A DNA stretch of 64,000 nt from Janthinobacterium sp. TB1-E2 (GTDB lineage Bacteria > Pseudomonadota > Gammaproteobacteria > Burkholderiales > Burkholderiaceae_D), in assembly GCF_036885605.1 (NCBI RefSeq), contig NZ_CP142523.1, positions 1,240,001 through 1,304,000 of the forward strand, in the 5' to 3' direction. The position numbers were made by a program, and so were the translations under genes. The notes beneath the pieces were generated by a model. The model saw only the letters and a list, made by a program, of their open reading frames with translations, had not been told where the DNA came from and did no database searches. This document shows positions 35,017 through 50,900 of this stretch, piece by piece; the first letter of the stretch is position 1, and each line of letters begins with the position of its first letter.

Positions 35017-35172
35017 GTTTTCTCCCTCGTAGTCTTGCTTTGTTCCAGTTGGCCACGTCACGCGACGTGGTCCTGTTGTCTGTTCGTTTTTGCGTATTCG
35101 GTCTTGCACTTTGCAGAGCGCGGCACCATCTTCATCTGGCGTCCATGGCGCTTCTGCCTTTGGTATGTCCCT

Positions 35173-35402: not shown

Positions 35403-36323
35403 TCAGTTCAGGCGCGCCAGGTGGCGCTGTACGCAGAGGAAGGCGCCGATCAGGCCCAGGCCGGCGCTGACGGCCAGCAGGCCCGCCATCGGCAGCGGCG
35501 CCAGCGGCACCAGCTGGAATTCGGACGCATACAGGCGGGCAAATTCGGCAATCGCGGTATTGAGCGGTTGCAAGGCCAGCGCCACGGCGCCCAGGGCCAG
35601 CGCGCCGGCGCACAGGCCCAGCAGAGCACCCGTGTAATAGAAGGGGCGATGGATGAAGGTGTCCGTCGCGCCGATCAGTTTCGAGATGCTGATTTCATCG
35701 CGCTGCTGCATCACTTGCAGGCGGATGGTATTGAAGACCACGGCGATCACGGCCACGCCCAGGGTGATGGCCAGCAGCAGCAGCACCAGGCGCAGCACGC
35801 CCAGCAGGGCCGCCAGGCGCTTGACCCAGGCCGAATCGACTTGCGCCGATTCCACGCCGGGCAAGTGGCGCAGCTGTTCCGCCACCGCATCGACGTCCTG
35901 CGCTTCGCTGGCGCTGCTGAAGGCGTCGAGTTTCAGCACATAGCTGTCGGGCAAGGGATTGTCGCCCAAGGTGCTCAGTACATCGGCCAGGCCATTCTTG
36001 TTTTTCAGGGTGTCGAGCGCCTGTTCGCGCGGGATGAAGACGATCTTTGCCTTTTGCTCGCCCACGATCTTGCGCATGGAACTGGCCAGGGCCACGGCTT
36101 GTTCGCGCGGCGTGTCGATCTTCAGGAAGACGCTGATTTCCGGATCGACCGACATCTGTTCCGACATCGGGCGCACATTGTCGAGCATGGTCAAGCCGGC
36201 GAACGGCAGCGACAGGGCAATGGCGACGACGACGACGTTCAACAGAAAGCCGCCTGGCGACTTGCGTAAATGAATCAGCGCCGAGCCCAGCGCGAAGCGG
36301 TGTTGACGGAACCAGCCTCTCAT
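35403..36323 (-). CDS. ftsX: Cell division protein FtsX
   Basis: 306 residues, four TM helices (about 28-48, 175-200, 228-250, 272-295) with a periplasmic domain between TM1 and TM2 and the FtsX-type permease half at the C-terminus (QVMQQRDEISISKLIGATDTFIHRPF). FtsEX couples ATP use to activation of septal amidases during division. It overlaps ftsE by ATGA and is the last gene of the ftsY-ftsE-ftsX operon. Confidence 0.95.
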   Translation of the reverse strand: MRGWFRQHRFALGSALIHLRKSPGGFLLNVVVVAIALSLPFAGLTMLDNVRPMSEQMSVDPEISVFLKIDTPREQAVALASSMRKIVGEQKAKIVFIPREQALDTLKNKNGLADVLSTLGDNPLPDSYVLKLDAFSSASEAQDVDAVAEQLRHLPGVESAQVDSAWVKRLAALLGVLRLVLLLLAITLGVAVIAVVFNTIRLQVMQQRDEISISKLIGATDTFIHRPFYYTGALLGLCAGALALGAVALALQPLNTAIAEFARLYASEFQLVPLAPLPMAGLLAVSAGLGLIGAFLCVQRHLARLN

Positions 36324-37063
36324 GGCTGTTCTCCCTGCGCGTCGTCCAAGCCGGGGGACGGTGCAAAATCGGGATCGGGCGGCGCGAAGACGGGCGCTTG
36401 CGTGGCCTTGTCGATGGCCACCAGCTGGCCGTTTTTCAGGTGGATCACGCGGGCGGCGGCGTCGAGCATCTGTTCGTCATGGCTGGAAATGAGGCAGGTC
36501 ACGCCCACCGAGTGGAAGGCTTTCAGGGCGTCGAGCACCTTGTTGGCGCTGGCGCGGTCCAGGTTGGCCGTCGGTTCGTCGGCCAGGATGATCTGCGGCC
36601 GGTTGACGATGGCGCGCGCGATCGACACGCGCTGCTGCTCGCCGCCCGACAGCGACAGCGGCCGCGCCATGGCGCGGTCCAGCAATCCCACCTTGTCGAG
36701 CGCGGCGCGCGCGCGCTGCTCGGCGGCCGCCTTGTGGGCGCCCACGACGAGCAGCGGCAGCATGACGTTGGCCAGGATGGAGCGGTCGTTCAATAACTTT
36801 TGCTGCTGGAAGATCAGGCCCATGTTGCGGCGCAGGAAGGGCACGCCGGCCGGCTTGATCTTTGCCATGTCCTGGCCATTGACGATCAGCTTGCCCGACG
36901 TGGGGCGTTCCATGGCGGCGATCATTTTCAGCAAGGTGGATTTGCCGGCGCCGGACGGGCCGGCCAGAAACACCAGCTCGCCCTTGGCAATACTGAGCGA
37001 AATGTCGCTGAGCGCCACGGCATCGGGGGAGTATTGCTTGGAGACGTGCTGAAATTCAATCAT
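36320..37063 (-). CDS. ftsE: Cell division ATP-binding protein FtsE
   Basis: 247 residues. Walker A GPSGAGKST (about 36-44), Q-loop FQQQ, signature LSGGEQQR, Walker B IILADEPTANLD. The C-terminal 25 residues are a Pro/Asp-rich tail longer than in E. coli FtsE. I took ATG 37063 (MIEFQHVSKQY) because the family begins there; the frame continues upstream into ftsY. Ten bp separate it from ftsY. Confidence 0.95.
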   Translation of the reverse strand: MIEFQHVSKQYSPDAVALSDISLSIAKGELVFLAGPSGAGKSTLLKMIAAMERPTSGKLIVNGQDMAKIKPAGVPFLRRNMGLIFQQQKLLNDRSILANVMLPLLVVGAHKAAAEQRARAALDKVGLLDRAMARPLSLSGGEQQRVSIARAIVNRPQIILADEPTANLDRASANKVLDALKAFHSVGVTCLISSHDEQMLDAAARVIHLKNGQLVAIDKATQAPVFAPPDPDFAPSPGLDDAQGEQP

Positions 37064-37073
37064 GTAGGTAGGC

Positions 37074-38141
37074 TTATCCGAGCAGCGCTTCGACAAATTC
37101 GGCAGCCACGAACGGCTGCAAGTCTTCAATTTTCTCACCGATGCCGATGAAGTACACGGGCACGGGACGCACGCGGGCTATCGCCGCCAGCACGCCGCCC
37201 TTGGCGGTGCCGTCCAGCTTGGTGATCACCAGGCCGCTTAACTGCAGGGCATCGTCGAACGCCTTCACTTGCGTGAGGGCGTTCTGGCCTGTGTTGCCGT
37301 CGATGACGAGCAGGGTTTCATGCGGCGCGCCATCCATGCCCTTGCCGATCACGCGCTTGATTTTCTTCAATTCTTCCATCAGGTGCAACTGCGTGGGCAA
37401 GCGGCCCGCCGTGTCGACCATCACCACGTCGATGCCGCGCGCTTTCGCCGATTGCACGGAGTCGTAGGCCACGGCGGCCGGGTCGCCCGATTCCTGCGAA
37501 ATCACGGTAACGTTGTTGCGCTCGCCCCAGACCATCAGCTGTTCGCGCGCGGCGGCGCGGAAGGTGTCGCCCGCAGCCAGCAGCACGGACTGGTTGTTCG
37601 ACTGCATGTGCTTGGCGAGCTTGCCGATGGTGGTGGTCTTGCCGGCGCCATTCACGCCGGAAATCATCATCACGAGCGGCTTGTGGCGGCCCAGCTCGAA
37701 GCGCTTTTCCAGTGGCGAGAGCAGGTCGATCAGCAGCACTTTCAGCGCGGCCTTGACGGCGGCGGCATCGAGCAGCTTGTCTTCCTTGACCTTTTTCTTC
37801 AATTCCGTGAGCAGGAATTCCGTGGCGTCGATGCCCGCGTCGGACATCAGCAGGGCCGCTTCCAGCTCTTCGTACAGGGCGTCGTCGATCTTCGCGCCGA
37901 CGAACAGCACGGACAAGGTGTTCGAGGTTTTCGACAAGCCGGCCTTCAGGCGCGTCATCCACGATTTTTTCTCGGGTTCGGCGGCCACGATCACGGGCAC
38001 GAGCTCGGCCGGCGCGCCGCTCAGCGGTTCAGCGGACGGGGCTGCTGCTGGCGCGGCAGGCGGCGTGGCGGCGGGAAGGACGAGAGGCTCGGCTGGCGCA
38101 GCCTCGGGAGCGATGGGTTTTTTCTTGAAGAAACTAAACAT
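37074..38141 (-). CDS. ftsY: Signal recognition particle receptor FtsY
   Basis: 355 residues: a short Pro/Ala-rich acidic A-region (about 10-55), then the N domain (about 60-145) and the SRP GTPase G domain with GVNGAGKTTTIGKLA, the DTFRAAA insertion box, VDTAGRLP and TKLDGTAKGG. It docks SRP-ribosome complexes at the membrane for co-translational insertion. First gene of the ftsY-ftsE-ftsX operon. Confidence 0.96.
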   Translation of the reverse strand: MFSFFKKKPIAPEAAPAEPLVLPAATPPAAPAAAPSAEPLSGAPAELVPVIVAAEPEKKSWMTRLKAGLSKTSNTLSVLFVGAKIDDALYEELEAALLMSDAGIDATEFLLTELKKKVKEDKLLDAAAVKAALKVLLIDLLSPLEKRFELGRHKPLVMMISGVNGAGKTTTIGKLAKHMQSNNQSVLLAAGDTFRAAAREQLMVWGERNNVTVISQESGDPAAVAYDSVQSAKARGIDVVMVDTAGRLPTQLHLMEELKKIKRVIGKGMDGAPHETLLVIDGNTGQNALTQVKAFDDALQLSGLVITKLDGTAKGGVLAAIARVRPVPVYFIGIGEKIEDLQPFVAAEFVEALLG

Positions 38142-38305
38142 GGATGTGTGGTGGCGGGTGCTGACCTAAGGCCCGGCGGCGCCGGACACTGTTGATCCGG
38201 CTATTCTACCAGAGCGCGCCCGGCCCTTCATGCTTTACTGTTCGATTGGCAACATTGCGCGGCTATCCACGGAGATCGCCGCAGTTGCCGCGCTTTCCAG
38301 CCGGT

Positions 38306-39289
38306 TCAGTGGGTTTGCAGGGCGAGCGCCTGATGGCGGCGGCGCCAGTCGGCGATGCTTTCGTCGACTTGCCGCAAGTCCAGCACATGCAAAAACGGTG
38401 GCGGCTGCTTGTACAGCACGGGACTACGTCCGCCGGCCCACAATTCCATCTCTGGCGGCAAGCTTGCATGCAGCTGCTGCAGGCTGTCGCGCGTCTGCCG
38501 TTGCTTGCTGGCGCTGGAAAACGACAGCGCGACGATGTCGGCCCGCTGCGCGCGGGCGGCCGCGACGATGTCCGTCAGCGGCGTTTCCACGCCCAGCGAC
38601 ATGCAATGGGCGCCGGCCGCCGCGCACAGCGCCTCGGCCATCAGCAGCCCCAGGCCATGACGCTCCTGCGGCAAGGTGCTGAGGACGATGCGCGGCGTGC
38701 GCGTGGACGGGCTGCTTGCTTGCGGCAGGGAAAAGATGGCGTGGCGCATCACCGTTTGCAAGGTTTCGCTATACAGATGCTCTTCATATACGGCCAGGTC
38801 GCCGCAAGCCCACGCTTCGCCCACCATGCCCGTGAGGGGGGCGATGACGTCGATGGTGAACGCTTTCAAGCCCAGCACGGCCAGCGCCTGGCGCAGGGCG
38901 TCGCCCAGTTCCGCCATCTGGTGGCCACGGCACAGCGACAGGTAGTGTTCGAGCTGGGGTGCGGGCGTTGACGGCGCCGCACTGCCGGCGCTGGCCAGCT
39001 GCTGCAGTTGCACGGTGCTGTGTTGCATGATTTTTCCCGGACGAAATCCGAGGTCCAGCAGGCGCTTAACCATGCGCAGCTTCTGCACTTGCTCGGCCGG
39101 ATAGCTGCGTTCGCCAAAAGCATCGCGCTGGGGCTGGGGAAAGGCGTAGCGGCGCTCCCACACACGCAAGGTTTCCTTGGCCAGCCCGGTATCGCGCTCG
39201 ACATCGCTGATGCTGAAGGCGGAAGTAGGTTGCAGGTCAGTATCCATACCAGGGGGCTTGCTCGCATGCCAAAAGAACGTGGAGTGCAT
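38306..39289 (-). CDS. MerR-family adenosylcobalamin photoreceptor (CarH/LitR type)
   Basis: 327 residues. An N-terminal MerR helix-turn-helix (about 26-95: FSISDVERDTGLAKETLRVWERRY) is followed by a helical bundle and a B12-binding domain. The light-sensor marks are present: Trp160, nine residues, Glu170-His171 (the Wx9EH adenosyl-capping motif) and ERHGLG with His211 as lower cobalt ligand (ExHxxG). CarH/LitR proteins bind DNA as tetramers in the dark and fall apart on illumination, releasing repression. ATG 39289 has GGAAGG upstream; ATG 39247 (MDTDLQ) is the alternative. It is divergent from the eight-gene operon it most likely controls. Confidence 0.87.
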   Translation of the reverse strand: MHSTFFWHASKPPGMDTDLQPTSAFSISDVERDTGLAKETLRVWERRYAFPQPQRDAFGERSYPAEQVQKLRMVKRLLDLGFRPGKIMQHSTVQLQQLASAGSAAPSTPAPQLEHYLSLCRGHQMAELGDALRQALAVLGLKAFTIDVIAPLTGMVGEAWACGDLAVYEEHLYSETLQTVMRHAIFSLPQASSPSTRTPRIVLSTLPQERHGLGLLMAEALCAAAGAHCMSLGVETPLTDIVAAARAQRADIVALSFSSASKQRQTRDSLQQLHASLPPEMELWAGGRSPVLYKQPPPFLHVLDLRQVDESIADWRRRHQALALQTH

Positions 39290-39376
39290 TTTACGCCTTC
39301 CGCCGCCCCGGACCAAATAGCTGAATCCGATTGAAAATTGCCGACGTATAAGTTTCTGAACGGCTGAGAGCGCTCA

Positions 39377-39405
39377 TTGACATAAATCAATATTTCATCG
39401 ATTAT
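39377..39405 (+). promoter_or_regulatory. Putative sigma70 promoter of the light-response operon
   Basis: Perfect TTGACA (39377-39382), 17-bp spacer, GATTAT (39400-39405), in the AT-rich divergent region between the MerR gene and the oxidoreductase gene. Transcription would begin near 39412. Confidence 0.65.
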
Positions 39406-39417
39406 CCATGAGGCTTA

Positions 39418-39432
39418 TTTGTCCAGGACAAA
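39418..39432. promoter_or_regulatory. Candidate operator palindrome for the MerR/B12 regulator
   Basis: TTTGTCCAGGACAAA, a perfect 7+1+7 palindrome at about +6 to +20 of the predicted start, where a bound repressor would block early transcription. I infer the binding protein from position only. Confidence 0.5.
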
Positions 39433-39450
39433 CTTAACACAGGTGCACTC

Positions 39451-40761
39451 ATGAAAATTGCCGTCGTCGGAGCAGGAATCGCAGGATTGTCGTGTGCCTA
39501 TCGCCTGGCGCAAGCGGGCCAGGACGTCACCTTGTACGAGGCGGGCGACTATTTTGGCGGCCACAGCCATACGGTGGACGTCACGCTCGATGGCGTCACG
39601 CATGGCGTCGACACGGGTTTTCTCGTGTTTAACCACGCCACCTACCCGAACCTGGTGCAGCTGTTTGACGAACTCGGTGTCGAGGCGGCCGACAGCGACA
39701 TGTCGTTTTCCGTCAAAATGCCGCTGGGCACGGCATCCGATGCGCGCGTGCTGGAATGGGCGGGCGCCAATCTCGATACCGTGTTTACCCAGCGCAGCAA
39801 CCTGCTGCGCCCCGCCTTTTTGCGCATGCTGCGCGACATTGTGCGCTTCAACCGCCAGGCCAGCGCCCTGGCCACGGCCAGCGTGCCGGCGCCGGCCATG
39901 TCGCTGGGCGAATACCTTGACCTGCACAACTATGGCGACGAGTTCCGCCACTGGTATCTGCTGCCGATGGCCGCATGCATCTGGTCGTGCCCGGCGCGCC
40001 AGATGCTGGCTTTTCCCTTGGCCACGTTCATCCGTTTCTGCCACAACCATGGCTTGCTGCAAGTGAGTGACCGTCCGCAATGGCGCACGGTGCGGGGCGG
40101 ATCGCGCGTGTACGTGGAAAAACTGCTGGCCGGCATCCCGCAGCAGCGCCTCGCTTGCCCCGTGCTGGCCGTGCGCCGCCAGCCGCACGGTGGCGCGCGC
40201 ATGGTCGAGCTGCATACGGCCGCCGGCGTCGAGCATGTCGATCATGTCGTGCTCGCTTGCCACAGCGACCAGTCGCTGGCCCTGCTGGGAGATATCCGCG
40301 ACGATGAGCGCTCCGTGCTCGAAGCCGTGCGTTACCAGCCGAATCGAGCTGTGCTGCATACGGATGCGTCCTGCCTGCCGCAGCGCCGCAAGGCATGGTC
40401 GGCCTGGAATTACCAGGGCAGGCCGGCCGCGCAAGGCGATGCGCCGCAAGTGTGCGTGCATTATTTGCTGAACCAGCTGCAACCCTTGCCCTTTACCACG
40501 CCCGTTATCGTGTCGCTTAACCCGCTCGACGAGCCCGCTCCGGCGAGCATCATCGACGAATTTTCGTATGCCCACCCCGTGTTCGATGGCGCGGCCATTG
40601 CCGCCCAGGCGCGCCTGGCCGGTTTCCAGGGCGCGCAGCATACGTGGTTCGCGGGCGCCTGGACGGGTTATGGTTTCCACGAGGACGGCTTGAAGTCGGG
40701 CCTGGCCGTGGCGCAAATACTCAATGGCATGGCGGCGGCGGAGCTCGGCCATGCCGCGTGA
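39451..40761 (+). CDS. FAD/NAD(P)-binding oxidoreductase (COG2907 type)
   Basis: 436 residues. The N-terminal dinucleotide fold VVGAGIAGLSCAYRLAQAG and the GGHSHT motif place it among amine-oxidase-like flavoproteins; the C-terminal FAD segment is FAGAWTGYGFHEDGLKSG. Members of this group sit beside DUF1365 and CFA-synthase-like genes in singlet-oxygen and light-induced operons, and some act as fatty-acid desaturases or oxidases in furan fatty acid synthesis. Activity on membrane acyl chains is inferred. First gene of the operon; GTGCACTC rather than a strong ribosome site precedes the ATG. Confidence 0.87.
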   Translation: MKIAVVGAGIAGLSCAYRLAQAGQDVTLYEAGDYFGGHSHTVDVTLDGVTHGVDTGFLVFNHATYPNLVQLFDELGVEAADSDMSFSVKMPLGTASDARVLEWAGANLDTVFTQRSNLLRPAFLRMLRDIVRFNRQASALATASVPAPAMSLGEYLDLHNYGDEFRHWYLLPMAACIWSCPARQMLAFPLATFIRFCHNHGLLQVSDRPQWRTVRGGSRVYVEKLLAGIPQQRLACPVLAVRRQPHGGARMVELHTAAGVEHVDHVVLACHSDQSLALLGDIRDDERSVLEAVRYQPNRAVLHTDASCLPQRRKAWSAWNYQGRPAAQGDAPQVCVHYLLNQLQPLPFTTPVIVSLNPLDEPAPASIIDEFSYAHPVFDGAAIAAQARLAGFQGAQHTWFAGAWTGYGFHEDGLKSGLAVAQILNGMAAAELGHAA

Positions 40762-41548
40762 TCCATCGCCGCCCGTGGCACCGCAGCCCCAGCTGTGCCT
40801 GGGACAGGTGCGCCATGCGCGGCTGCGCCCACGCGCACATGCTTTTGCTTACGGCATGTTTTATCTGCGCCTGCCTTTGCGCAGCATGGGGGCGCGCGAT
40901 TTTCCTGCCCGGCTGATGTCGCGCAACGGCGCCAATGTGCTGTCCTTCCGCGACAGCGACCACGGCGATGGCGCGACGCCGCTGCTGGACTGGATCGACG
41001 GCTTGCTGCGTGAACATGGCGTGGCGGATGCGGGTGGTGAAATCTGGCTGCAAACCATGCCGCGCATGTTCGGTTATGTCTTCAATCCCGTCAGCTTCTG
41101 GTTTTGCCACCGCCCGGATGGCGCGCTGCGCGCCGTGGTCTGCGATGTGCGCAATACCTTTGGCGAGCGCCATCTGTACCTGCTCGAGCAGGGCGGCGCC
41201 ATCGCGTATGGCAGCGAGCTGCGCGCCAATAAAATTTTCCACGTCTCGCCGTTTTGCAAGGTGGAGGGAAATTATCGTTTCCATTTCCTGCGTAACAGCG
41301 AACAGGGCGGCGAGCGCCACCTGGCCCGGGTCGACTATGACGACCTCGACGGCCCGCTGCTGCAGACGAGCTTGTCCGGCACGGCGCAGCCGCTGCGCGA
41401 TGGCGCCATCGCCTGGGCCCTGCTGCGCTATCCGTTGATGACGTTAGGCGTGATGGCGCGCATTCATTGGCAAGCCTTGCGCCTGTGGCTGCGCCGCGTG
41501 CCGTTTTTCAGCAAACCCCTTCCACCACAAGAAAAGGTGTCCCGATGA
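40751..41548 (+). CDS. DUF1365 family protein
   Basis: A 265-residue DUF1365 protein (VRHARLRPRAHAFAYGMFYLRL; MFGYVFNPVSFWFCHR; NKIFHVSPFCKVEGNYRF). The biochemical role is unknown; the gene nearly always lies between the FAD oxidoreductase and the CFA-like gene, so a part in the same lipid modification is likely. The start is ATG 40751, overlapping the previous gene by 11 bp; the frame also runs nine codons upstream. It overlaps the next gene by ATGA. Confidence 0.87.
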   Translation: MPRDPSPPVAPQPQLCLGQVRHARLRPRAHAFAYGMFYLRLPLRSMGARDFPARLMSRNGANVLSFRDSDHGDGATPLLDWIDGLLREHGVADAGGEIWLQTMPRMFGYVFNPVSFWFCHRPDGALRAVVCDVRNTFGERHLYLLEQGGAIAYGSELRANKIFHVSPFCKVEGNYRFHFLRNSEQGGERHLARVDYDDLDGPLLQTSLSGTAQPLRDGAIAWALLRYPLMTLGVMARIHWQALRLWLRRVPFFSKPLPPQEKVSR

Positions 41549-42792
41549 GCTCCGATTTCCTGCCGACCGGCCTGCAGGCGCGCGCCTGCGTCCGTCCCGA
41601 CCACACGGCCGATCACACGCACCTGGACGTGCCCGCCTCCGGGCGCGTGATCTTGCGCTTGCTGGAAAAACTGCAGCATGGCGCCCTGCGCCTGCGCACG
41701 CCTGACGGCAGTATCTTGCTGTATGGCGACGGCAGCCACCCCGTCACCCTGGACTTGCACAATTGGCGTTTGTGCTCGGCCGTGCTGCGCTCGGGCGATA
41801 TCGGCTTTGCGGAAACGTTTATCGCCGGCGACTGGCGCACGGACAATTTGCCGGGCCTGATCGAGCTGATGATACGCAACCGCGCGCAGATCGAATCGCT
41901 GATCTATGGCAACTGGTGGGGCAACCTCGTCTACAAGCTGCGGCACTTGCTCAACCGCAATTCGCGGGCCGGCAGCAAGAAGAATATCCACGCCCATTAC
42001 GACATCGGCAACGCCTTTTATCAGTTGTGGCTGGATCCGTCGATGACGTATTCGAGCGCGCTGTTCAGCGAAGGCGCCAGCCTGGAGCAGGCGCAAGGTG
42101 CGAAATACCGGCGCATCGCCGACCAGCTGCAGCTGCAGCCGGGCGCCAAGGTGCTGGAAATCGGCTGCGGCTGGGGCGGCTTTGCGGAAACGGCGGCGCG
42201 CAGCTACGGCGCCCACGTGACGGGTTTGACTCTATCTACGGAGCAACTTGCCTATGCGCGCCAGCGCCTGCAGGACGCGGGGCTGGCGCAGCAGGCTGAT
42301 TTGCAACTGTGCGACTACCGCGACAGCGCCGGCCAGTACGACGCCATCGCCTCGATCGAGATGTTCGAAGCCGTGGGGCAAAGCTACTGGCCCGGCTATT
42401 TCGAGTGCGTGGCGCGCAACCTGAAGCAGGGCGGACGCGCCTGCATCCAGACCATCGTCATTGCCGACGACTTGTTCGAGCGCTACAGCAAGAGCACGGA
42501 TTTTATTCAACAGTACATTTTCCCGGGCGGCATGCTGCCGTCGCCGGCCGAGTTTCGCCGCGCCGCCGAGGCGCAGGGTTTGCGCGTGGAAGACGCCTTC
42601 AGCTTCGGCCTCGATTACGCGGAAACCTTGCGCCAGTGGCGCGCCAGCTTCCTGGTCCAGCGCACGGCGCTGGAAAAGCAGGGTTTCGATGGCCGTTTCC
42701 TGCTGACCTGGGAGTTTTACCTCGCGTATTGCGAGGCCGCCTTCCAGGCGCACAACACGGATGTGATGCAATTTACCCTGATCAAGGACTGA
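41545..42792 (+). CDS. Cyclopropane-fatty-acyl-phospholipid synthase family methyltransferase
   Basis: 415 residues. The N-terminal lipid-binding region (about 1-130) is followed by a SAM methyltransferase domain with VLEIGCGWGGFAE (motif I), EMFEAVGQSYW and the FIQQYIFPGGMLPS segment typical of CFA synthases. It methylates unsaturated acyl chains of phospholipids, giving cyclopropane or methyl-branched products; the latter are precursors of furan fatty acids. The neighbours fit either product. ATG 41545 overlaps the DUF1365 stop. Confidence 0.9.
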   Translation: MSSDFLPTGLQARACVRPDHTADHTHLDVPASGRVILRLLEKLQHGALRLRTPDGSILLYGDGSHPVTLDLHNWRLCSAVLRSGDIGFAETFIAGDWRTDNLPGLIELMIRNRAQIESLIYGNWWGNLVYKLRHLLNRNSRAGSKKNIHAHYDIGNAFYQLWLDPSMTYSSALFSEGASLEQAQGAKYRRIADQLQLQPGAKVLEIGCGWGGFAETAARSYGAHVTGLTLSTEQLAYARQRLQDAGLAQQADLQLCDYRDSAGQYDAIASIEMFEAVGQSYWPGYFECVARNLKQGGRACIQTIVIADDLFERYSKSTDFIQQYIFPGGMLPSPAEFRRAAEAQGLRVEDAFSFGLDYAETLRQWRASFLVQRTALEKQGFDGRFLLTWEFYLAYCEAAFQAHNTDVMQFTLIKD

Positions 42793-42794
42793 CC

Positions 42795-43343
42795 ATGCGC
42801 CGCCTGCTTGCCACTATTGTGCTGTCATTGACCGTGTTGGGTGCCGCGGCCGCGCCGCCGGCCTTTATCGCTGCCGACGTGCCCGAAGCCCGGCTGGCGG
42901 GCGAGGGCGAATACACGTGGTTCGGCATGCGTATTTATCGGGCGCAACTGTGGGTGGGCCCGCAAGGCTACCAGGGCGCGGCGTCCGAAACGGCGCCGTT
43001 TGTGCTGGAACTGCGCTACGCACGCGCGCTCGACGGCAAGAAGATCGCCGAAGCCAGTCATGAACAGATGCAAAAGTTGGGCGTGGGCACGGAAGCGCAG
43101 CGCCTGGCCTGGCTGTCCACCATGCAGCGCATCTTTCCTGACGTTAAGGAAGACCAGCGCATCGCGGGCGTCTACCGGGCCGGCATCGCGCCCGGCGTAC
43201 GCTTTTACCTCGACGGCAAGGTACTGGCGGACGTGACGGATGGCGACTTCGCGCGTGCGTTCTTTGCCATCTGGCTGTCGCCATCGACGACGGCGCCGAA
43301 GCTGCGCGCGGCCTTGCTGCAGAGTGCGGCGCCGCTGCCATGA
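42795..43343 (+). CDS. Chalcone isomerase-fold periplasmic protein
   Basis: 182 residues. A signal peptide (cleavage near AAA-AP, about residue 20) precedes a chalcone-isomerase-like domain (GEGEYTWFGMRIYRAQLWVG; FVLELRYARALDGKKIAEAS; VKEDQRIAGVYRAGIAPGVRFYLDGK). Bacterial members are not flavonoid enzymes; plant and fungal relatives bind fatty acids, which fits an operon for lipid modification. Two bases separate it from the methyltransferase gene and it overlaps the next by ATGA. Confidence 0.83.
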   Translation: MRRLLATIVLSLTVLGAAAAPPAFIAADVPEARLAGEGEYTWFGMRIYRAQLWVGPQGYQGAASETAPFVLELRYARALDGKKIAEASHEQMQKLGVGTEAQRLAWLSTMQRIFPDVKEDQRIAGVYRAGIAPGVRFYLDGKVLADVTDGDFARAFFAIWLSPSTTAPKLRAALLQSAAPLP

Positions 43344-44620
43344 ATGCCGTGGGCGGCGCCTTGAGCTTGCAAGCCTTGTTCAGTTATGGCCTGTTCGGCT
43401 TGCCGCTGGCCATGCTGGCGCTGCCCATCTATATATATGTAGCGCCGTTTTATGCGCAGCGCAGCAGCCTGGATCTGGCGCAGATCGGCGCCGTGCTGCT
43501 GGCGGCCCGCATCGCCGCCGCCTTCATCGATCCGGCCCTCGGTGCCTGGATGGCGCGTGGCGGGCGCAGCTATGCTGTATATGTCGGCGCCTCCTTGCCC
43601 TTGCTGCTGCTGGGCTTTGGCGCCCTGTTCCATCCACCGGCCATGCGGGAAACGGCGACCCTGGCCTGGTTCCTGGCTGCCTTGCTGCTCGTCTACACCG
43701 CGTATGGCCTTGCCGGCATCGCGCACCAGAGCTGGGGTGCGGCCCTGAGCCAGCTGCGCGCGCAGCGGGCGCGGGTGACGGCCGTGCGCGAAGGCTGCGG
43801 CTTGTTCGGTGTGATCCTGGCGGCGGGCCTCACTTCCGTGTTCGGCTATGACGGCTTGTCGCTGGCCTTTGCCGTCTGCCTGCTGGCGGCGGGCGCGCTG
43901 CTGCTGGCGCGCGCGCCGCGTCCCGCCTTGCGCAGTGCCGCAGAAGCGGTTTCCGGCAATGGCTGGAAGCTGCCGTTTCGCCAGCGCGCGTTTCGCTGGC
44001 TGTTTGCCGTTTTGCTCGTCAATGGCGTGGCGGCCGCCATCCCCGCCACTCTGTTCCTGTTCTTTGCCACCGACTACTTGCGCCTCGGCCATTACGCCGG
44101 ACCGTTTTTGATCGTCTACTTTTGCGCGGCGGCAGCCTCGATGCCCGCGTGGGTAGCCCTGGCGCGGCGCTTTGGCGAGGCGCGCGCCTGGGGCGGCGCC
44201 ATGCTGCTGGCAGCTTGCGTGTTTGTCTGGGCGTATGGCCTGGGCGCGGGCGCCGCCTGGGGTTTTGCCACGATCTGCCTGCTGTCGGGCCTGGCGCTGG
44301 GCGCCGACCTGGCCTTGCCTCCGGCCCTGTTGGCAGGACTGATCGGCGCGGCTGGCCATGCCGGGCGGCACGAAGCCGCGTATTTCGGCTGGTGGAACTG
44401 GGGCGTACAGATGAGCCTGGCGCTGGCGGCCGGCATCGCCTTGCCCCTGCTGGCCTGGCTCGGCTATGTGCCTGGCAACAGCGGCGGCGGCTTGCCGGCC
44501 CTGTCCGCCGCCTATGCCTTGCTGCCCTGCGCCCTGAAACTGCTGGCCGCGCTGCTGCTGTGGCGCGCGCCTCTACAACATATATATAGTGAAACCGGGG
44601 AGTATCGACCATGTATCTGA
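43340..44620 (+). CDS. MFS transporter (MelB/GPH-like)
   Basis: 426 residues, about 12 TM helices, with the acid-bearing AAFIDPALGAWMARGG loop after TM2 and YTAYGLAGIAHQSWGAALSQL, similar to MFS_2/GPH symporters. The substrate is unknown; within the operon it could move a lipid or lipid precursor (inference). It overlaps both neighbours. Confidence 0.82.
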   Translation: MNAVGGALSLQALFSYGLFGLPLAMLALPIYIYVAPFYAQRSSLDLAQIGAVLLAARIAAAFIDPALGAWMARGGRSYAVYVGASLPLLLLGFGALFHPPAMRETATLAWFLAALLLVYTAYGLAGIAHQSWGAALSQLRAQRARVTAVREGCGLFGVILAAGLTSVFGYDGLSLAFAVCLLAAGALLLARAPRPALRSAAEAVSGNGWKLPFRQRAFRWLFAVLLVNGVAAAIPATLFLFFATDYLRLGHYAGPFLIVYFCAAAASMPAWVALARRFGEARAWGGAMLLAACVFVWAYGLGAGAAWGFATICLLSGLALGADLALPPALLAGLIGAAGHAGRHEAAYFGWWNWGVQMSLALAAGIALPLLAWLGYVPGNSGGGLPALSAAYALLPCALKLLAALLLWRAPLQHIYSETGEYRPCI

Positions 44621-45171
44621 TGAAATGTTGCCGGCGCGGCATGACGGCAGCCGCCTTGCTGCTGGCGCTGGCCGCCTGTTCCACGCCGCCCACGCCTGCC
44701 ACCTACGCGCAGGAAACACCCAAGCTGGACTTGCAGCAGTACTTCAACGGCACGCTGGACGCCCACGGCATCTTCCAGGACCGCGCCGGCAAGGTGGTCA
44801 AGCGCTTCACCGTCGTGATGCGGGCCAGCTGGACGGGCGAGATTGGCACCCTGGACGAGGATTTCACGTATTCCGACGGCAGCAAACAACGGCGCGTGTG
44901 GACCTTGCGCAAGACGGCGCCCGGGCGCTTCATCGGCACGGCGCCCGACGTGATCGGGGAAGCCGTCGGCGAAGTGGCCGGCAATGCGCTGCGCTGGCAA
45001 TACGTGCTGGCGCTGCCCGTCGATGGCACGGTCTACCACGTCGACTTCGAGGACTGGATGTTCCTGATGGATGACAAGGTCATGCTGAACCGCGCCGCCA
45101 TGAGCAAGTTCGGTTTCAGCCTGGGCGCCGTCACCTTGTCGTTCAGCAAGCGTCCGCAGGCGGTCCCATGA
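44611..45171 (+). CDS. DUF3833 family lipoprotein
   Basis: 186 residues. Lipobox LAAC follows a basic N-terminus, then a lipocalin-like DUF3833 domain (LDLQQYFNGTLDAHGIFQDRAGK; FTYSDGSKQRRVWTLRK). DUF3833 genes recur in light- and singlet-oxygen-regulated clusters; a lipid-carrying role in the periplasm would suit the fold. ATG 44611 lies 10 bp inside the MFS gene. Confidence 0.85.
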   Translation: MYLMKCCRRGMTAAALLLALAACSTPPTPATYAQETPKLDLQQYFNGTLDAHGIFQDRAGKVVKRFTVVMRASWTGEIGTLDEDFTYSDGSKQRRVWTLRKTAPGRFIGTAPDVIGEAVGEVAGNALRWQYVLALPVDGTVYHVDFEDWMFLMDDKVMLNRAAMSKFGFSLGAVTLSFSKRPQAVP

Positions 45172-45935
45172 ACCGCAAGATCACCAGCTGGGCCGGCAAG
45201 CATGTGTGGATCATCGGCGCTTCCAGCGGCATCGGCGCCGCGTGCGCGACCTTGCTGCTGGAGCAGGGCGCGAGCGTAGCCTTGTCGGCACGTCACCGCG
45301 CCAGCCTCGAGCGACTGTGCGAGGGGCAGCCGCTGGCGCAGGCATTGCCGCTCGATATCACGCAGCACGCGCAGCTGCGGGCCGTCTGCGCGCAATTGCA
45401 GCAGCAATGGACGCATATCGACCTGATACTGGTGGTCGCTGGCGGCTATCAGGCCATGCGCGCCGATAGCTTCGACCTTGAGGCGGCCCAGGGCTTGCTG
45501 GCGCTGAATGTGGGCGGCGTCTTCAATTGCCTGGACCAGGCCTTGCCGTGGCTATTGCGCCAAGGTAGCGGCGGCATCGGCATCGTCGCCTCGGTGGCCG
45601 GTTATGGCGGTTTGCCGAAAGCCCTCGCGTACGGCGCCAGCAAGGCGGCGCTGATCAACCTGACGGAGTCGCTGTATCTGGATCTGCATGCACGCGGAAT
45701 TGATGTGTATCAAATCAACCCCGGTTTTGTCGCCACGCCTTTGACGGCGGACAACGATTTCACGATGCCAGCTCTGATGACGGCGCAGGACGCGGCCGCC
45801 GCCATGCTCGACGGCATCGAGCGGGGCCAGTTCCACATCCACTTTCCCAAACGCTTTACCAATACCATGCGCCTGGCGCGGCTGTTGCCGTACCGCGCCT
45901 ATTTCTGGCTGATCCGCAAGGTGACGGGCGTATGA
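45168..45935 (+). CDS. Short-chain dehydrogenase/reductase
   Basis: A 255-residue classical SDR. The cofactor motif IGASSGIGAACA (about 16-27) and catalytic YGASK (Tyr and Lys, about 156-160) with the upstream Ser in IVASVAG are intact; NP at VYQINPGFV follows. The C-terminus has FPKRFTNTMRLARLLPYRAYFWLI, typical of the SDRs of these clusters. It probably reduces or oxidises a lipid-derived carbonyl or alcohol. ATGA overlaps at both ends. Confidence 0.9.
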   Translation: MNRKITSWAGKHVWIIGASSGIGAACATLLLEQGASVALSARHRASLERLCEGQPLAQALPLDITQHAQLRAVCAQLQQQWTHIDLILVVAGGYQAMRADSFDLEAAQGLLALNVGGVFNCLDQALPWLLRQGSGGIGIVASVAGYGGLPKALAYGASKAALINLTESLYLDLHARGIDVYQINPGFVATPLTADNDFTMPALMTAQDAAAAMLDGIERGQFHIHFPKRFTNTMRLARLLPYRAYFWLIRKVTGV

Positions 45936-46390
45936 GCACAAGTATGCTGGACACGACGGAAGGCGTGGAAGCGGCGCTGGCGCGCCTGGTGGGGTTTTAC
46001 GAGCACCTGAGCCTGGAAAGCCTGGCCCAGCTGGGCGCCGTGTATGCGCCGAACGCCCATTTCAAGGACCCGTTCAACGAGGTGGTGGGGCATGCCGCCA
46101 TCCTGGCCATCTTCGAGCACATGTTCGTGCAAGTCGATGCGCCCCGGTTTGTCGTGCTGGAAAGCGTGGGGCAGGGGCAGCAAGCGTTCCTGACGTGGGA
46201 GTTTCGCTTCCGCATGAAACGACTGGTATCTGGCGAACAGTGCATTCGTGGCGCAACCCATGTGCGTTTCGATACGCAGGGACGGGTGGTCGTGCATCGC
46301 GATTATTGGGATGCGGCGGAAGAATTGTATGAAAAACTGCCGTTGCTGGGCGGTTTCATGCGCATGCTGCGGCGGGCAAGCCAGCGCTAA
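45932..46390 (+). CDS. NTF2-like/SnoaL-type protein
   Basis: 152 residues with an NTF2-like cone fold (LARLVGFYEHLSLESLAQLGAVYAPNAHFKDPFNEVVGH; GATHVRFDTQGRVVVHRDYWDAAEELYEKLP). The nuclear transport factor 2 superfamily includes small isomerases, hydrolases and binding proteins; no active site can be assigned with certainty. Last gene of the operon. No clear terminator follows. Confidence 0.83.
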   Translation: MSTSMLDTTEGVEAALARLVGFYEHLSLESLAQLGAVYAPNAHFKDPFNEVVGHAAILAIFEHMFVQVDAPRFVVLESVGQGQQAFLTWEFRFRMKRLVSGEQCIRGATHVRFDTQGRVVVHRDYWDAAEELYEKLPLLGGFMRMLRRASQR

Positions 46391-47364
46391 GGTGGTTTCT
46401 TGATGCTTTTAAGCAAAAAATGCAAAAAAGAAAAAGTAAATTGTGCGGAATGGGTCAGGCGAAAACTTGATTTCGGTCAAAGTGTCGTTTTTTAGACACA
46501 AATATATCAAAATATTGAGAAGGCAACATTGTAAGAAATTGTTTCAAGTGATGCGCAATTTGCAAGCAAGAGTCGTCCTCATCCGTTCCAATCGGATAAC
46601 TGAAGCGTAGTCCGGAAAACACGGAAAACATTTCTATGTGAGCAATTTAAATTACCGGAAAGTCAGTAATTCCGTTGCTACTCTGGCTATTTTTCCGACG
46701 CGCGCGCCGACGTCGAAAATGGCGCCTACGCCCCTGAATAATGCGGCAACGCACCAAAAACGGGCGCTTTATTTCCCATTTTTGTGCGTTCGGCAGCAAA
46801 CATTGGCGATGCCGTGTATGCTTCGTCCCGTTTATCCATTATCGCCTGACAAATTGCGCGCTTTGTCGCGTAAATCTTGGAGGGCAAATGACGGGTAAAG
46901 CATGTTGACGTTTTAATCACTCGCCTGATACTGTTGCACTAATACAACGGGTGTCGACAAGGCATGCGCTATGATGGAATGGTCAATCAGGCCAATGCAT
47001 TGGTTGGCAAGGGGCACTGGCTCTGTCGCGTAGTACGGTTGGCGATGGTCGGGATGCCTGAAAAAGCCCTCGGCCTGGTACCGGAAGTAACATGTTGGAA
47101 CTTGATGGAATGTGAAACGGTCGTTATAGTGCCGCTTCCGGTGCCGTTTGAGCACCGAACCGGCGCACGAATGACGGTCGTTATGCAGCCTTCAAGCTTA
47201 TCGGTGCAATAGCGTGCCGATACCGATATGAATGTTCCCCTGACCGGAACAGCAATGTGGCAGGTGGAGACCTTGCCCTCACTCATAAAAAGCGCTCTGC
47301 TAGAGCGCAGCTCGAGATGCATAGGCTGTATTACTTTTTGCTTCAAAAATTAAAGGAAATCGCA
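46391..47364. other. 974-bp gene-free, lower-GC region upstream of the porin
   Basis: Base composition is visibly more AT-rich than the flanks, especially 46400-46720. Open frames of 60-120 codons exist on both strands but none has a ribosome site, usable composition or a recognisable motif. A possible promoter (TTGACG 46905-46910, 18 bp, TACTGT 46929-46934) and a GCGCTCT/AGAGCGC hairpin (47292-47308) flanked by A residues lie before the porin. The latter would act as a terminator only on the minus strand. A decayed gene or mobile element is possible but I could not identify it. Confidence 0.45.
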
Positions 47365-48429
47365 ATGAAAAAAACTCTGATCACCCTGGCAGTTCTGGCA
47401 GCAGCCACTGGCGTAGCCCAAGCTCAATCGAGCGTTGTCATCTACGGTACCGTTGACGCTGGTTTCGTCAGCGAGCGCGGCGGTGTTAACGGCAACGTTA
47501 ACAAACTGGACAGCGGCATTGCTTCGGCTTCCCGTATCGGCTTCAAAGGCACCGAAGATCTGGGCAGCGGCCTGTCGGCACTGTTCGTTCTGGAATCGGG
47601 CTTCGGCGTTGACAACGGTCAACAAGACGTTGCTGGTACCTTGTTCAATCGTCAAGCTTACGTTGGTCTGAGCAGCAAAACGACCGGTACCTTGACCCTG
47701 GGTCGTCAATACACCCCTTGGTACAACACCCTGTCGAAAGTTGCTGATCCATTCGCAGCTGGCTACGCTGGTTCCGCTAAAAACTTGTTCCCAGCGAACA
47801 CCCGCACCAGCAACACCGTGCTGTACACCTCGCCAAACTTCAACGGCTTTGACGCTGACGTGGCTTACACCTTCGGCGAAAACGCTGAGTCGAACAAAAT
47901 CGGCCGCAAAATCGGCGCGTCGGCTGGCTACTCGAACGGTCCTCTGAACGCTCGTATCGCTTACAACAACACCAGCAACGACACCGCGCTGACCGAAACC
48001 GGTAGCGGCCGTAACTGGTTGGCTGCAGCTAACTACGACTTCGCAGTTGCTAAAGCTTACGTCGCATACGGCGTGAACAAAGGCCAAAACAGCGCCATCC
48101 GCAACAACGGCAACGTTAACGCGTTTGACTACACTTCGGCTGGCTTCAGCACCGACAGCACCACCGCTCTGATCGGCGCAACGGTACCAGTTGGTCCAGC
48201 AGGCACCGTGATGGCTTCGATCATCCACGTGAACGACAAAAACAGCGCAAACGCCGATGCTAACCAGTTCTCGCTGGGCTACTCGTACGCTCTGTCGAAG
48301 CGCACCAGCACCTACGCTTCGTACGCTAAAATCTCGAACAAAAACAACGCTGGCTACACCGTTGGTAACAACAGCAATGTTGGTACGGGCGACAAAGCCT
48401 TCAACGTTGGCGTTCGTCACTCGTTCTAA
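47365..48429 (+). CDS. Gram-negative porin (betaproteobacterial OmpC-like trimeric porin)
   Basis: 354 residues. The signal peptide (MKKTLITLAVLAAATGVAQA) is followed by a 16-strand porin barrel: VVIYGTVDAGFVSE opening strand, loop 3 region near LGRQYTPWYNTLSKVADPF, and a C-terminal Phe needed for Bam recognition. It forms a general diffusion pore in the outer membrane. AAAGGA precedes ATG 47365. Codons are strongly biased to the highly expressed set (CGT, GGT, GCT, AAA) unlike the neighbours, which points to an abundant protein. Confidence 0.95.
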   Translation: MKKTLITLAVLAAATGVAQAQSSVVIYGTVDAGFVSERGGVNGNVNKLDSGIASASRIGFKGTEDLGSGLSALFVLESGFGVDNGQQDVAGTLFNRQAYVGLSSKTTGTLTLGRQYTPWYNTLSKVADPFAAGYAGSAKNLFPANTRTSNTVLYTSPNFNGFDADVAYTFGENAESNKIGRKIGASAGYSNGPLNARIAYNNTSNDTALTETGSGRNWLAAANYDFAVAKAYVAYGVNKGQNSAIRNNGNVNAFDYTSAGFSTDSTTALIGATVPVGPAGTVMASIIHVNDKNSANADANQFSLGYSYALSKRTSTYASYAKISNKNNAGYTVGNNSNVGTGDKAFNVGVRHSF

Positions 48430-48460
48430 TATTCGCGCAAGCGAAGCTTAGTTCCGCTGC

Positions 48461-48482
48461 CAGCATCCCTTCGGGGATGCTG
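48461..48482 (+). promoter_or_regulatory. UUCG-capped hairpin after the porin
   Basis: Perfect 9-bp stem CAGCATCCC/GGGATGCTG closed by a TTCG tetraloop, about 30 nt after the stop and before the true terminator. No T tract; it more likely protects the abundant porin mRNA from 3' decay. Confidence 0.6.
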
Positions 48483-48492
48483 ATAAGCAAGG

Positions 48493-48529
48493 AAACGCGT
48501 CTCCAGGCTAGTCCTGGCGGCGCGTTTTT
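48493..48529 (+). terminator. Rho-independent terminator of the porin gene
   Basis: AAACGCG pairs with CGCGTTT around an inner CCAGG/CCTGG stem, followed by five T. Confidence 0.85.
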
Positions 48530-48580
48530 GCATTGGCGGCGCCAGTTATAATGGCGCCGTTACTCAAGTAAAGGAATGCC

Positions 48581-49123
48581 ATGTATTCATACACATCGCC
48601 GCGCCTGGCTGCCATGCTGGCCGCGCTGCTGCTGGCTGGCGCCACGGGCGCCGCTGCCGCTGCCGTCAAGGGCAAGAAGCCGGCCGGACTGGAGCGCTAC
48701 GGCGTGGCCGTCTACTCCGACCTGTGCCTGCAAAAGGATAGCGGCGAAATCGGCGGCCAGCGCGTCACCTTGCACCGCTTTGCCGAGGCCGATTCCGTCA
48801 TCTATGAATTCACGGCCGGCGCGCTGAGCTGGCCCATCGTGGCCAACGACGTCAACCTGGACGCCGCCACGGGCGTTTTCGACTTCACCATCGCCGGCGC
48901 CGACAGCGAGGAGCGCACCATCGTCGGCAAGTTTTCCAAGGATGGCCAGACCCTGACCCTGGAAGGCGATTACTGCGGCGGCAACGTGCGCATGCCGATG
49001 AAACTGAGCCGCGTGCGCGATTTCGGCCGTCCCCTGAAAAACTGCACGCCATGCCCGCCGATGCCGCAAGCGCCGGTCGAACCAGTGCCTGCCGAGGAAA
49101 GCGCGACTGTGCCCGCAGCCTGA
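48581..49123 (+). CDS. Secreted hypothetical protein
   Basis: 180 residues. The N-terminal signal peptide ends in an Ala-rich stretch (about residue 28). The mature part is a single beta-rich domain with cysteines (DLCLQK, DYCGGN, NCTPCPP) and a Pro/Ala/Glu tail. I do not recognise a family. It is monocistronic: a terminator precedes it and another follows. Confidence 0.75.
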   Translation: MYSYTSPRLAAMLAALLLAGATGAAAAAVKGKKPAGLERYGVAVYSDLCLQKDSGEIGGQRVTLHRFAEADSVIYEFTAGALSWPIVANDVNLDAATGVFDFTIAGADSEERTIVGKFSKDGQTLTLEGDYCGGNVRMPMKLSRVRDFGRPLKNCTPCPPMPQAPVEPVPAEESATVPAA

Positions 49124-49146
49124 GCGATTGCCGCTGTCAAAAAGAA

Positions 49147-49172
49147 AAAGGCCCGGTATCGACCGGGCCTTT
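49147..49172. terminator. Bidirectional terminator
   Basis: Perfect AAAGGCCCGGT / ACCGGGCCTTT stem with ATCG loop, between two convergent genes. Confidence 0.9.
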
Positions 49173-49196
49173 GTTATTTGCAGCGTTGCAAGGAGC

Positions 49197-50900
49197 TTAT
49201 TTGGCCGCCTGCGCCTTTTCCGCCGTGGCGCGGATGGTGGCCAGGGTCGCGTTCGGCGTGATCAGGTTGCCGTCGTAGCGCAGCTCGATCAGGGCCGGCA
49301 AGTTGTGCGCCTTGGCGTGCGCCAGCGCCCGTTGCAGGGCCGGGGCGAACTCTTCCGTCGTATTCACCACTTCGCCATGCGCGCCGTACGCTTGCGCCAG
49401 TGCCGCGAAATCCGGGTTGTGCAGGGTCGTGCCCGACACGCGGCCCGGGTAGTCGCGCTCCTGGTGCATGCGGATGGTGCCGAACATCTGGTTATTGAAG
49501 ACGATGATGACCACGCCCGCCTGGTATTGCACGGCCGTGGCCAGTTCCTGGCCATTCATCATGTATTCGCCGTCGCCGGCAAACGTGATCACGGTGCGCT
49601 CGGGATGGACGATCTTGGCCGCCACGCCTGACGGCACACCGTAGCCCATGGCGCCGTTGGTTGGCGCCAGCTGGGTGCGCATGCCGCCGTAGCGGTAGAA
49701 ACGGTGGGCCCACGAAGCGTAGTTGCCGGCGCCATTCGTCAGGATGGTGTCGGGCGGCACTTGCGCCATGATCTCCTGCGTCACTTGCCACAGGTCCAGC
49801 GGCGCCTGGCCATCCTGGAAGATGGGCGGCTGTTCCTGGTAGGCGGCCAGCTCGGCCTTGGCTTCGGCCGGCGTATGTTTCCATGCGGAAGCATCGACGG
49901 GGGCCATGGCGGCCAGCATGGCGCACACTTGCGGCATGCCGCTGTTGATCATCAGCTCAGCCTGGTAGACGCTGCCCAGTTCCTCGGCATCCGTATGGAT
50001 GTGCACGAGGCGCTGGCGCGGCACGGGCGAATCGAACAGGGTGTAGCCGCCCGTCGTCATCTCGCCCAGGCGCGGGCCGATGGCGATCACCAGGTCGGCA
50101 TTTTTCACGCGCGCGGCCAGTTTCGGGTTGATGCCGATGCCGACGTCGCCGATGTAGTTCGGGTGCGCATTGTCGAGCAAGTCCTGGAAGCGGAAGGCGC
50201 AGGCGACGGGCAGCTGATTGTTTTCCGCGAACTGCTGCAGGTCGGCGCACGCTTGCGGCGTCCAGGTGGTGCCGCCCAGCAAGACCAGCGGCTGCTTCGC
50301 GGTGGCCAGCATGCCGCGCAACTGCTGCAATTGGGCGCCGGACGGCGCCGCTTGCACCGGCTGGTAGGCGCGCGTGTCGGCCACGGTGGCCAGCGAGATC
50401 AGCATGTCTTCCGGCAGGGCCAGCACGACGGGACCGGGACGCCCGCTGGTGGCCACCTGGAAGGCGCGCGCCAGGTATTCGGGGATGCGTTCGGCGCGGT
50501 CGATCTGCGCCACCCACTTGGCCATCTGGCCATACATGCGGCGGTAGTCGATTTCCTGGAACGCTTCGCGGTCGACGAAATCGTTGCCCACCTGGCCGAT
50601 GAACAGGATCATCGGCGTGGAATCCTGGTAAGCCGTGTGCACGCCGATCGAGGCATTGGTGGCGCCCGGTCCGCGCGTGACGAAGCAGATGCCCGGCTTG
50701 CCCGTCAGCTTGCCGTAGGCTTCGGCCATGAAGGCGGCGCCGCCTTCCTGGCGGTTGATGATGAAGCGGATGCCCGAGTCGTGCAGGGCGTCGAGCACGT
50801 CCAGGTAGCTTTCGCCAGGCACGCCAAAAGCGGTGTCGACACCGTGGATCTGCAGGGCATCGACCAGGATCTGGCCGCCGGTACGGGATTGTTGCGTCAT
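49197..50900 (-). CDS. Thiamine diphosphate-dependent enzyme, acetolactate synthase-like
   Basis: 567 residues with the three-domain ThDP layout. The N-terminal PYR domain has the catalytic Glu in RQEGGAAFMAEAYG, the middle domain is DHS-like, and the C-terminal PP domain has GDGEYMMNGQELATAVQ with the Mg/ThDP-binding GDG...NN. It looks like the IlvB/BenM-type ThDP lyases. No regulatory small subunit (ilvH/ilvN) or ilvC is adjacent, so it is probably not the branched-chain synthase; acetoin, oxalyl-CoA or another 2-oxoacid role is open. ATG 50900 (MTQQSR) is the family-like start. Confidence 0.87.
   Translation of the reverse strand: MTQQSRTGGQILVDALQIHGVDTAFGVPGESYLDVLDALHDSGIRFIINRQEGGAAFMAEAYGKLTGKPGICFVTRGPGATNASIGVHTAYQDSTPMILFIGQVGNDFVDREAFQEIDYRRMYGQMAKWVAQIDRAERIPEYLARAFQVATSGRPGPVVLALPEDMLISLATVADTRAYQPVQAAPSGAQLQQLRGMLATAKQPLVLLGGTTWTPQACADLQQFAENNQLPVACAFRFQDLLDNAHPNYIGDVGIGINPKLAARVKNADLVIAIGPRLGEMTTGGYTLFDSPVPRQRLVHIHTDAEELGSVYQAELMINSGMPQVCAMLAAMAPVDASAWKHTPAEAKAELAAYQEQPPIFQDGQAPLDLWQVTQEIMAQVPPDTILTNGAGNYASWAHRFYRYGGMRTQLAPTNGAMGYGVPSGVAAKIVHPERTVITFAGDGEYMMNGQELATAVQYQAGVVIIVFNNQMFGTIRMHQERDYPGRVSGTTLHNPDFAALAQAYGAHGEVVNTTEEFAPALQRALAHAKAHNLPALIELRYDGNLITPNATLATIRATAEKAQAAK

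Follow-up and report, generated by a model that had tools for sequence, protein, structure and literature searches.

What controls the lipid operon that lies beside the gene for a B12-binding MerR regulator in Janthinobacterium sp. TB1-E2? Both are found in the 64,000-nucleotide stretch analysed here (the window; bases 1240001-1304000 on a single 6.31-Mb contig), where one minus-strand regulator gene is divergent from eight packed plus-strand genes. The closest described regulators are the class I LitR/CarH proteins of Thermus, Bacillus and Myxococcus, which are adenosylcobalamin (AdoCbl) photoreceptor-repressors, and the window regulator has in common with them the MerR head, the 4-helix and Rossmann domains, the Wx9EH motif and a B12 motif of the form ExHx2G-x41-Sx-x22-27-GG. 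However, class I LitR/CarH genes adjoin carotenoid genes, whereas the window regulator adjoins a lipid operon and is without both a His after the Trp of Wx9EH and a GxxH signature. Similarly, the B12 photoreceptor CtMerR (PDB 8JBS; PMC11796333) combines a MerR head with a B12 domain and has no His at the position of Thermus CarH (TtCarH) residue 132; this position is Arg in CtMerR and Ala in the window regulator.

The lipid genes also have described counterparts. The PplR1/PmlR1 cluster of Pseudomonas, which pairs a class II LitR with a short LOV protein, shares with the window a flavin adenine dinucleotide (FAD) oxidoreductase, UfaM and a short-chain dehydrogenase (SDR) beside LitR, and it likewise has operators at the promoter, two in number, one of them between the transcription start and the ATG. 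In Pseudomonas mendocina such a cluster (FAD oxidoreductase, SDR, ufaM) is induced by light, ufaM by 25-33 fold. The cluster differs from the window in that its LitR is without the Rossmann B12 domain, the LOV protein senses light, the operator reads TGTACA-N12-TGTACA, and a photolyase gene lies inside it (PMC9758184). The RpoE-ChrR operon RSP1087-1091 of Rhodobacter sphaeroides, taken together with ufaM (RSP2144), shares UfaD, UfaO, a GPH symporter and an SDR with the window and also has a 186-amino-acid protein; its product is a furan fatty acid, and it belongs to a regulon with photolyase, FolE2 and fasciclin genes (PMC7074977). Here the differences are a sigma factor that answers singlet oxygen rather than a light sensor, a ufaM gene located elsewhere and, unlike in the window operon, neither a Chalcone_3 nor an NTF2-like gene among its five listed genes.

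We propose, with good but not full confidence, that the window contains an operon which makes furan fatty acids against photo-oxidative stress and is repressed by a B12-based light sensor. The operon is conserved, probably light-controlled and probably of the furan-fatty-acid type.

The regulator and the operon enzymes

MerR_1, B12-binding_2 and B12-binding domains all match the regulator above the Pfam cut-offs, and the RxWERRY of the MerR DNA-binding head is present. TtCarH is its top sequence match in the PDB (E 1.5e-27), and CarH is the first fold match of its AlphaFold model (mean pLDDT 89.1; E 1.7e-16). The Wx9EH motif, which concerns the adenosyl group, is retained, and the B12 motif reads ExHx2G-x41-SxS-x27-GG, which is the classic form D/ExHx2G/P-x41-SxT/V-x22-27-GG (PMC9304148) with Ser for T/V once. 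Thus the sequence-only reading, which had proposed a CarH-type B12 regulator from Wx9EH and ExHxxG, was right about these marks, and its numbering (W160, E170-H171, H211) holds from ATG 39289; from TTG 39316, where the longest ORF begins, the residues are W169, E179-H180 and H220. The genome encodes both families of cobalamin adenosyltransferases and two B12-binding_2 domains, one being the regulator's own. Among the matches listed, the seven closest named regulator loci are 89-96% identical and all come from Janthinobacterium. We regard the regulator as probably of the CarH/LitR class I type, with AdoCbl binding and release in light predicted from its motifs and domains. Two other classes were considered and rejected: class II LitR (PplR/PmlR) has the 4-helix domain only, whereas the regulator keeps the Rossmann B12 domain by Pfam, and class III LitR (Burkholderia) has a C-terminus unlike the B12 domains that Pfam finds here.

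Nine genes had been reported from the sequence, and open reading frames (ORFs) and Pfam matches bear out their coordinates, strands and families. The claim that most overlap by 4-11 bp stands for five overlaps (4, 4, 10, 4 and 4 bp) but not for the Chalcone_3 gene, which has none because its ATG 42795 sits 2 bp past the stop of the cyclopropane fatty acid (CFA)-synthase-like gene; the DUF1365 gene overlaps the FAD gene by 38 bp from ATG 40724 or by 11 bp from ATG 40751. The latter start gives 265 residues, the length found in five of seven close Janthinobacterium loci.

The FAD, DUF1365 and CMAS proteins match UfaD, UfaO and UfaM, respectively, by domain, description and neighbourhood. UfaD is described as FAD-binding and related to phytoene desaturases, a description that the window FAD protein fits, and DUF1365 is the domain of UfaO. 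According to PMC7380195, the Rhodobacter Ufa proteins yield a furan fatty acid that is methylated and acts as a singlet-oxygen scavenger, the UfaM, UfaD and UfaO genes of R. palustris sufficed for furan acid in a Rhodobacter triple mutant, and single deletions of RSP1087, RSP1088 and RSP1089 left the fatty acids without detectable change. Since the first three enzymes of the operon match UfaD, UfaO and UfaM, its likely product is a singlet-oxygen-scavenging furan fatty acid. The previously suggested overlap of this core with furan acid synthesis therefore holds. The suggestion that the full pathway may be undescribed does not, because the core chemistry is in print, RSP1087-1089 are dispensable for it, and the transporter and SDR have RSP1087-1091 counterparts (RSP1089, a GPH symporter, and RSP1087, an SDR; PMC7074977; RSP1088 has 186 residues). 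Five accessory genes are indeed without a known step, as had been said, but two of them, the transporter and the SDR, have their kinds in the Rhodobacter operon. Likewise, the operon has no photolyase gene, as noted before; the genome has one elsewhere (C1:5692086).

Conservation of the locus was followed in 80 named loci, the best 80 in a regulator scan of named genomes and metagenome-assembled genomes. The FAD-DUF1365-CFA trio stands by the same regulator in 46 of the 80, and the FAD gene is divergent from LitR in all 51 that show it. Fifty-nine loci extend beyond 9.5 kb on the operon side; the trio is present in 34 of them and the full set of eight genes in 25.

The palindrome at the operon promoter

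Upstream of the operon, a sigma-70-like promoter, TTGACA-N17-GATTAT, scores 10/12 (mean of shuffles, 0.2). Just past it sits the palindrome TTTGTCCwGGACAAA (TTTGTCCAGGACAAA), which ends 18 bp upstream of the first ATG and whose 13-bp core occurs exactly only once in the whole genome, here at the operon. With at most two mismatches the core is found in 47 of the 51 LitR-FAD intergenic regions, and the reversed pattern, the control, in none of them. In 450-bp regions at the LitR start, 39 of 76 palindrome pairs are spaced 62-64 bp, in 39 of the 80 loci; the control gives zero pairs in the 80 regions. In the 19 pair loci with an FAD gene, the pair, read by eye, usually flanks promoter-like sequence. 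The window has the downstream palindrome only, with 8-12 mismatches at 61-64 bp upstream. The class II operator T(G/A)TACA-N12-TGTA(C/T)A was not seen by eye in the intergenic sequence, where this different palindrome stands. We propose that the palindrome is a putative, conserved LitR operator; its placement just after the operon promoter and its pairing in many relatives look new.

Is the palindrome associated with other light genes? Across 145 family genomes the exact core has 30 copies in 24 genomes, as against 11 for the reversed pattern, and for 14 of the 30 a LitR gene is no more than 300 bp away. Fourteen of the remaining 16 were inspected in context: two precede photolyase genes, three BLUF genes and one a photoactive yellow protein (PYP) gene; one precedes a pyridoxamine-oxidase-like gene (L076 in genome G113), if an internal Met is its start; one lies 249 bp before a fasciclin gene and one 38 bp before a PAS-GGDEF-EAL gene; and the last five are within genes or of unclear context. 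We also scanned the 300 bp before photolyase and BLUF domain matches in LitR-bearing and LitR-less genomes. This covered 70 photolyase genes, from 70 of 121 genomes with a match, after seven loci that could not be oriented (one photolyase, six BLUF) had been dropped. At two mismatches or fewer, the core precedes photolyase in 2/46 LitR-bearing and 0/24 LitR-less cases and BLUF in 3/22 and 0/22, and the reversed pattern is absent from all four groups. One genome, G108, was counted as LitR-bearing on a head-domain match only (E 1.4e-12; 82% complete); leaving it out gives 2/45 for photolyase and 2/21 for BLUF, its BLUF site being in a genome without a full LitR.

Weighing the light-repressor reading

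A number of observations weigh against a light-controlled furan lipid operon. In TtCarH, His132, which follows the Trp, caps the cobalt in the light state, and an H132A variant is mostly still a tetramer in light according to one paper, whereas an earlier report describes dissociation (PMC10442372). Read off the alignment of the regulator with its TtCarH match, the equivalent residue is the one after Trp, and it is not His here. In 30 family sequences, which include the window's own and overlap with the named loci, it is Ala 28 times, Val once and Glu once; in the 77 readable loci of the best 80 it is Ala (52), Met (11), Ser (6), Val (3), Thr (2), Leu (2) or Ile (1), and never His. The cobalt-capping residue is missing, and therefore release in light would have to proceed without a bis-His switch. 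Of the SignatureFinder light set GxxW, EH, GxxH and GxxxP (PMC11796333), three of four are present, QERH replacing GxxH. Furthermore, 25 of the 59 loci have LitR without the trio, 15 of them in Duganella, Rugamonas and Pseudoduganella, which suggests other LitR targets there. The absent His, the absent GxxH and the LitR genes kept without a trio would all suit a LitR that binds B12 but reads cobalamin supply or redox rather than light, the operon then serving general membrane stress. We consider this unlikely. The W and E that contact the adenosyl group are retained, as is the lower His, the B12 motif is kept in 73/80 loci (with S or A accepted at one position and a spacer of 20-29 residues ahead of GG), and a few relatives have exact palindromes in front of photolyase, BLUF and PYP genes. 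Moreover, His after Trp is found in many CarH proteins, not in all (PMC9304148), and CtMerR, with Arg at that position, changes from a tetramer into monomers on illumination (PMC11796333), so that light sensing by another route stays plausible.

Other observations against the proposal concern the palindrome. The TtCarH and BmCarH operators are 11-bp direct repeats, whereas the window site is a palindrome; an FAD gene is missing from the sequence covered in 20 of the 39 loci that have a 62-64-bp pair; and the palindrome and locus counts are not independent, because the loci are related. At three mismatches the counts barely differ from the controls, being 7/46 in LitR-bearing versus 2/24 in LitR-less genomes for photolyase (reversed 6 and 2) and 8/22 versus 5/22 for BLUF (reversed 3 and 0). 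Photolyase and BLUF as general palindrome targets were rejected, as most such genes in LitR-bearing genomes have no site, and the genome's own photolyase has none in front. With six one-mismatch cores in this genome against 31 for the reversed pattern, there is no excess that would point to second targets in it. Could regulator and operon be chance neighbours, the operon answering to another regulator? In three relatives the only DUF1365 operon is elsewhere, beside a TetR gene, but those relocated copies have no palindrome before the FAD gene, and the divergent order is conserved across Burkholderiales with the palindrome in the shared region in nearly every case. We therefore regard chance adjacency as very improbable.

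The product is a separate matter. The likeness to the Ufa proteins is one of domain, description and neighbourhood. The CMAS protein scores 284-286 bits, under the NCBI CFA-synthase cut-offs of 400 and 600; CMAS matches in the genome comprise three of full length and a partial one, and identity is 28-38% to the genome's three paralogues and just 38-41% to gammaproteobacterial trio proteins, in a weak tree with the own paralogues on long branches. The DUF1365 model (40724-41548; pLDDT 91.7) has no PDB fold match at E 0.001; its weak matches include many lipocalin-like folds. These identities, the lack of a fold match for DUF1365 and the five accessory genes that have no known step would allow a methyl-branched, cyclopropane or other lipid as the product, with the FAD and DUF1365 proteins using another substrate. 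We hold this to be unlikely, slightly more so than a LitR blind to light: when loci were chosen from the whole phylum for their DUF1365 gene (20 chosen, one mis-specified and dropped), the FAD and DUF1365 genes adjoin in 19/19 and the trio is together in 18/19, and two alphaproteobacteria produce furan acid with these three families.

We propose the following mechanism for light-controlled furan lipid synthesis. In the dark, AdoCbl-bound LitR would occupy the palindrome immediately past the -10 element and keep the operon off; in many relatives, it would bind a pair of palindromes that flank the promoter at a distance of about six helical turns. In light, the Co-C bond would break, LitR would leave the DNA, and the enzymes would be made. 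UfaM would then methylate the cis-vaccenoyl chains of phospholipids, UfaD introduce a second double bond and UfaO close the furan using O2, giving a furan acid that would scavenge singlet oxygen. The SDR, GPH transporter, DUF3833, Chalcone_3 and NTF2-like proteins may be accessories, perhaps in the repair, disposal or trafficking of damaged lipids. More speculatively, and with rather less than even confidence, we suggest that across Burkholderiales a distinct B12-LitR lineage took over the alphaproteobacterial ChrR-sigma E photo-oxidative regulon (furan lipid genes, GPH transporter, SDR and FolE2, with photolyase and fasciclin in some genomes) and that its photoswitch does without the bis-His and spans a pair of palindromes that flank the promoter, six helical turns from each other.

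Each half of this system is known; the full B12-LitR pairing, the paired palindromes and the bis-His-free sensor look new. The sequence-only reading had mentioned neither the absent His nor the palindrome nor the exchange of regulators. Among the papers listed in searches of an open-licence library, none linked a B12-LitR to this operon, although an earlier description is possible. If the proposal is right, B12 light repressors have a job beyond carotenoids, vitamin B12 is tied to the way soil and freshwater bacteria protect their membranes, and one stress operon has been passed between unrelated light and oxidant sensors. It would also provide a natural bis-His-free CarH-like lineage for testing the light-switch mechanism and a defined operator for predicting regulons.

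Locus layout and further occurrences of the operon core and palindrome

Features of the regulator-operon locus, in window coordinates
Feature	Position	Strand	Basis or remark
LitR/CarH-like MerR regulator, 4-helix and Rossmann B12-binding domains	38306..39316	-	Pfam, PDB, motifs, fold
Regulator start candidates (uncertain)	TTG 39316, ATG 39289, ATG 39247	-	
Sigma-70-like operon promoter TTGACA-N17-GATTAT	39377..39405	+	10/12 matches; similar layout in relatives
Putative LitR operator, perfect palindrome TTTGTCCAGGACAAA	39418..39432	.	
FAD-dependent oxidoreductase, UfaD-like (putative desaturase of methylated acyl chain)	39451..40761	+	Pfam Amino_oxidase
DUF1365 protein, UfaO-like (putative furan-forming oxygenase)	40724..41548	+	Pfam; start 40724 or 40751
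CFA-synthase-like S-adenosylmethionine methyltransferase (putatively UfaM-like)	41545..42792	+	Pfam CMAS
Chalcone_3 (chalcone-isomerase-like) protein	42795..43343	+	Pfam
MFS_2/GPH-type transporter; same kind as RSP1089 by name	43340..44620	+	Pfam MFS_2
DUF3833 protein, 186 residues, the length of RSP1088	44611..45171	+	Pfam
Short-chain dehydrogenase; same kind as RSP1087 by name	45168..45935	+	Pfam adh_short
SnoaL_2/NTF2-like protein	45932..46390	+	Pfam SnoaL_2

An Rfam search of positions 35000-50000 gave no match at the gathering score.

The operon core occurs beside differing regulators: a LOV/class II LitR type, ChrR-sigma E and TetR. In L241, a locus of the PplR1/PmlR1 type, it lies near a head-only MerR gene and a gene for a PAS protein, together with NTF2-like, DUF1365, DUF3833 and Chalcone_3 genes. 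We take this PAS protein to be a LOV protein, L241 and L242 to be Pseudomonas-like, and L254 to be Rhodobacteraceae-like. In L254 the core (FAD oxidoreductase-DUF1365-MFS-SDR) lies beside sigma-70-type and ChrR-cupin genes, and this locus is likely the counterpart of the Rhodobacter furan-acid operon. A search for DUF1365 in 13 LitR-family genomes placed it next to LitR in five and only elsewhere in three (G048, G067 and G113), with no match in the other five (G106, G133, G128, G141 and G115). In G048, G067 and G113 the FAD gene adjoins a TetR gene. Diverged ufa-type operons by a TetR gene are seen in L337, L338 and L339, from genomes without a LitR-linked copy; L339 ends after DUF1365. Loci L262-L284 (mostly Duganella, Rugamonas and Pseudoduganella) have LitR, often with two palindromes spaced 62 bp, and no trio in the DNA covered. 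In some other Burkholderiales, glutathione peroxidase and FolE2-like genes lie between LitR and the FAD gene; loci with one or both are L235:7376-7996, L080:8186-8839, L291, L302, L308, L326 and L333 (the peroxidase by Pfam in L235 and L080; FolE2-like by a fragment of 27.3 bits against a cut-off of 25 in L291 and by eye in the others).

Several single copies of the palindrome are of interest. The exact core lies just upstream of photolyase genes L075:4768 and L077:3254, in two LitR-bearing genomes, and 25-71 bp before the start of BLUF genes L066:4040, L067:3735 and L078:4140, the L067 site being in a genome without a full LitR match; these BLUF blue-light sensors are perhaps under a B12 light repressor. 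Similarly, it lies 115 bp upstream of the PYP gene at L071:4875-5367 (G015 C3; E 3.6e-55, residues 1-125). Finally, we note that in the Janthinobacterium genome itself a one-mismatch palindrome lies 31 bp before a pyridoxamine-oxidase-like gene (L058:1501; G000 C1:5027847), and that the related gene in G113 (L076) has its exact site near its start.

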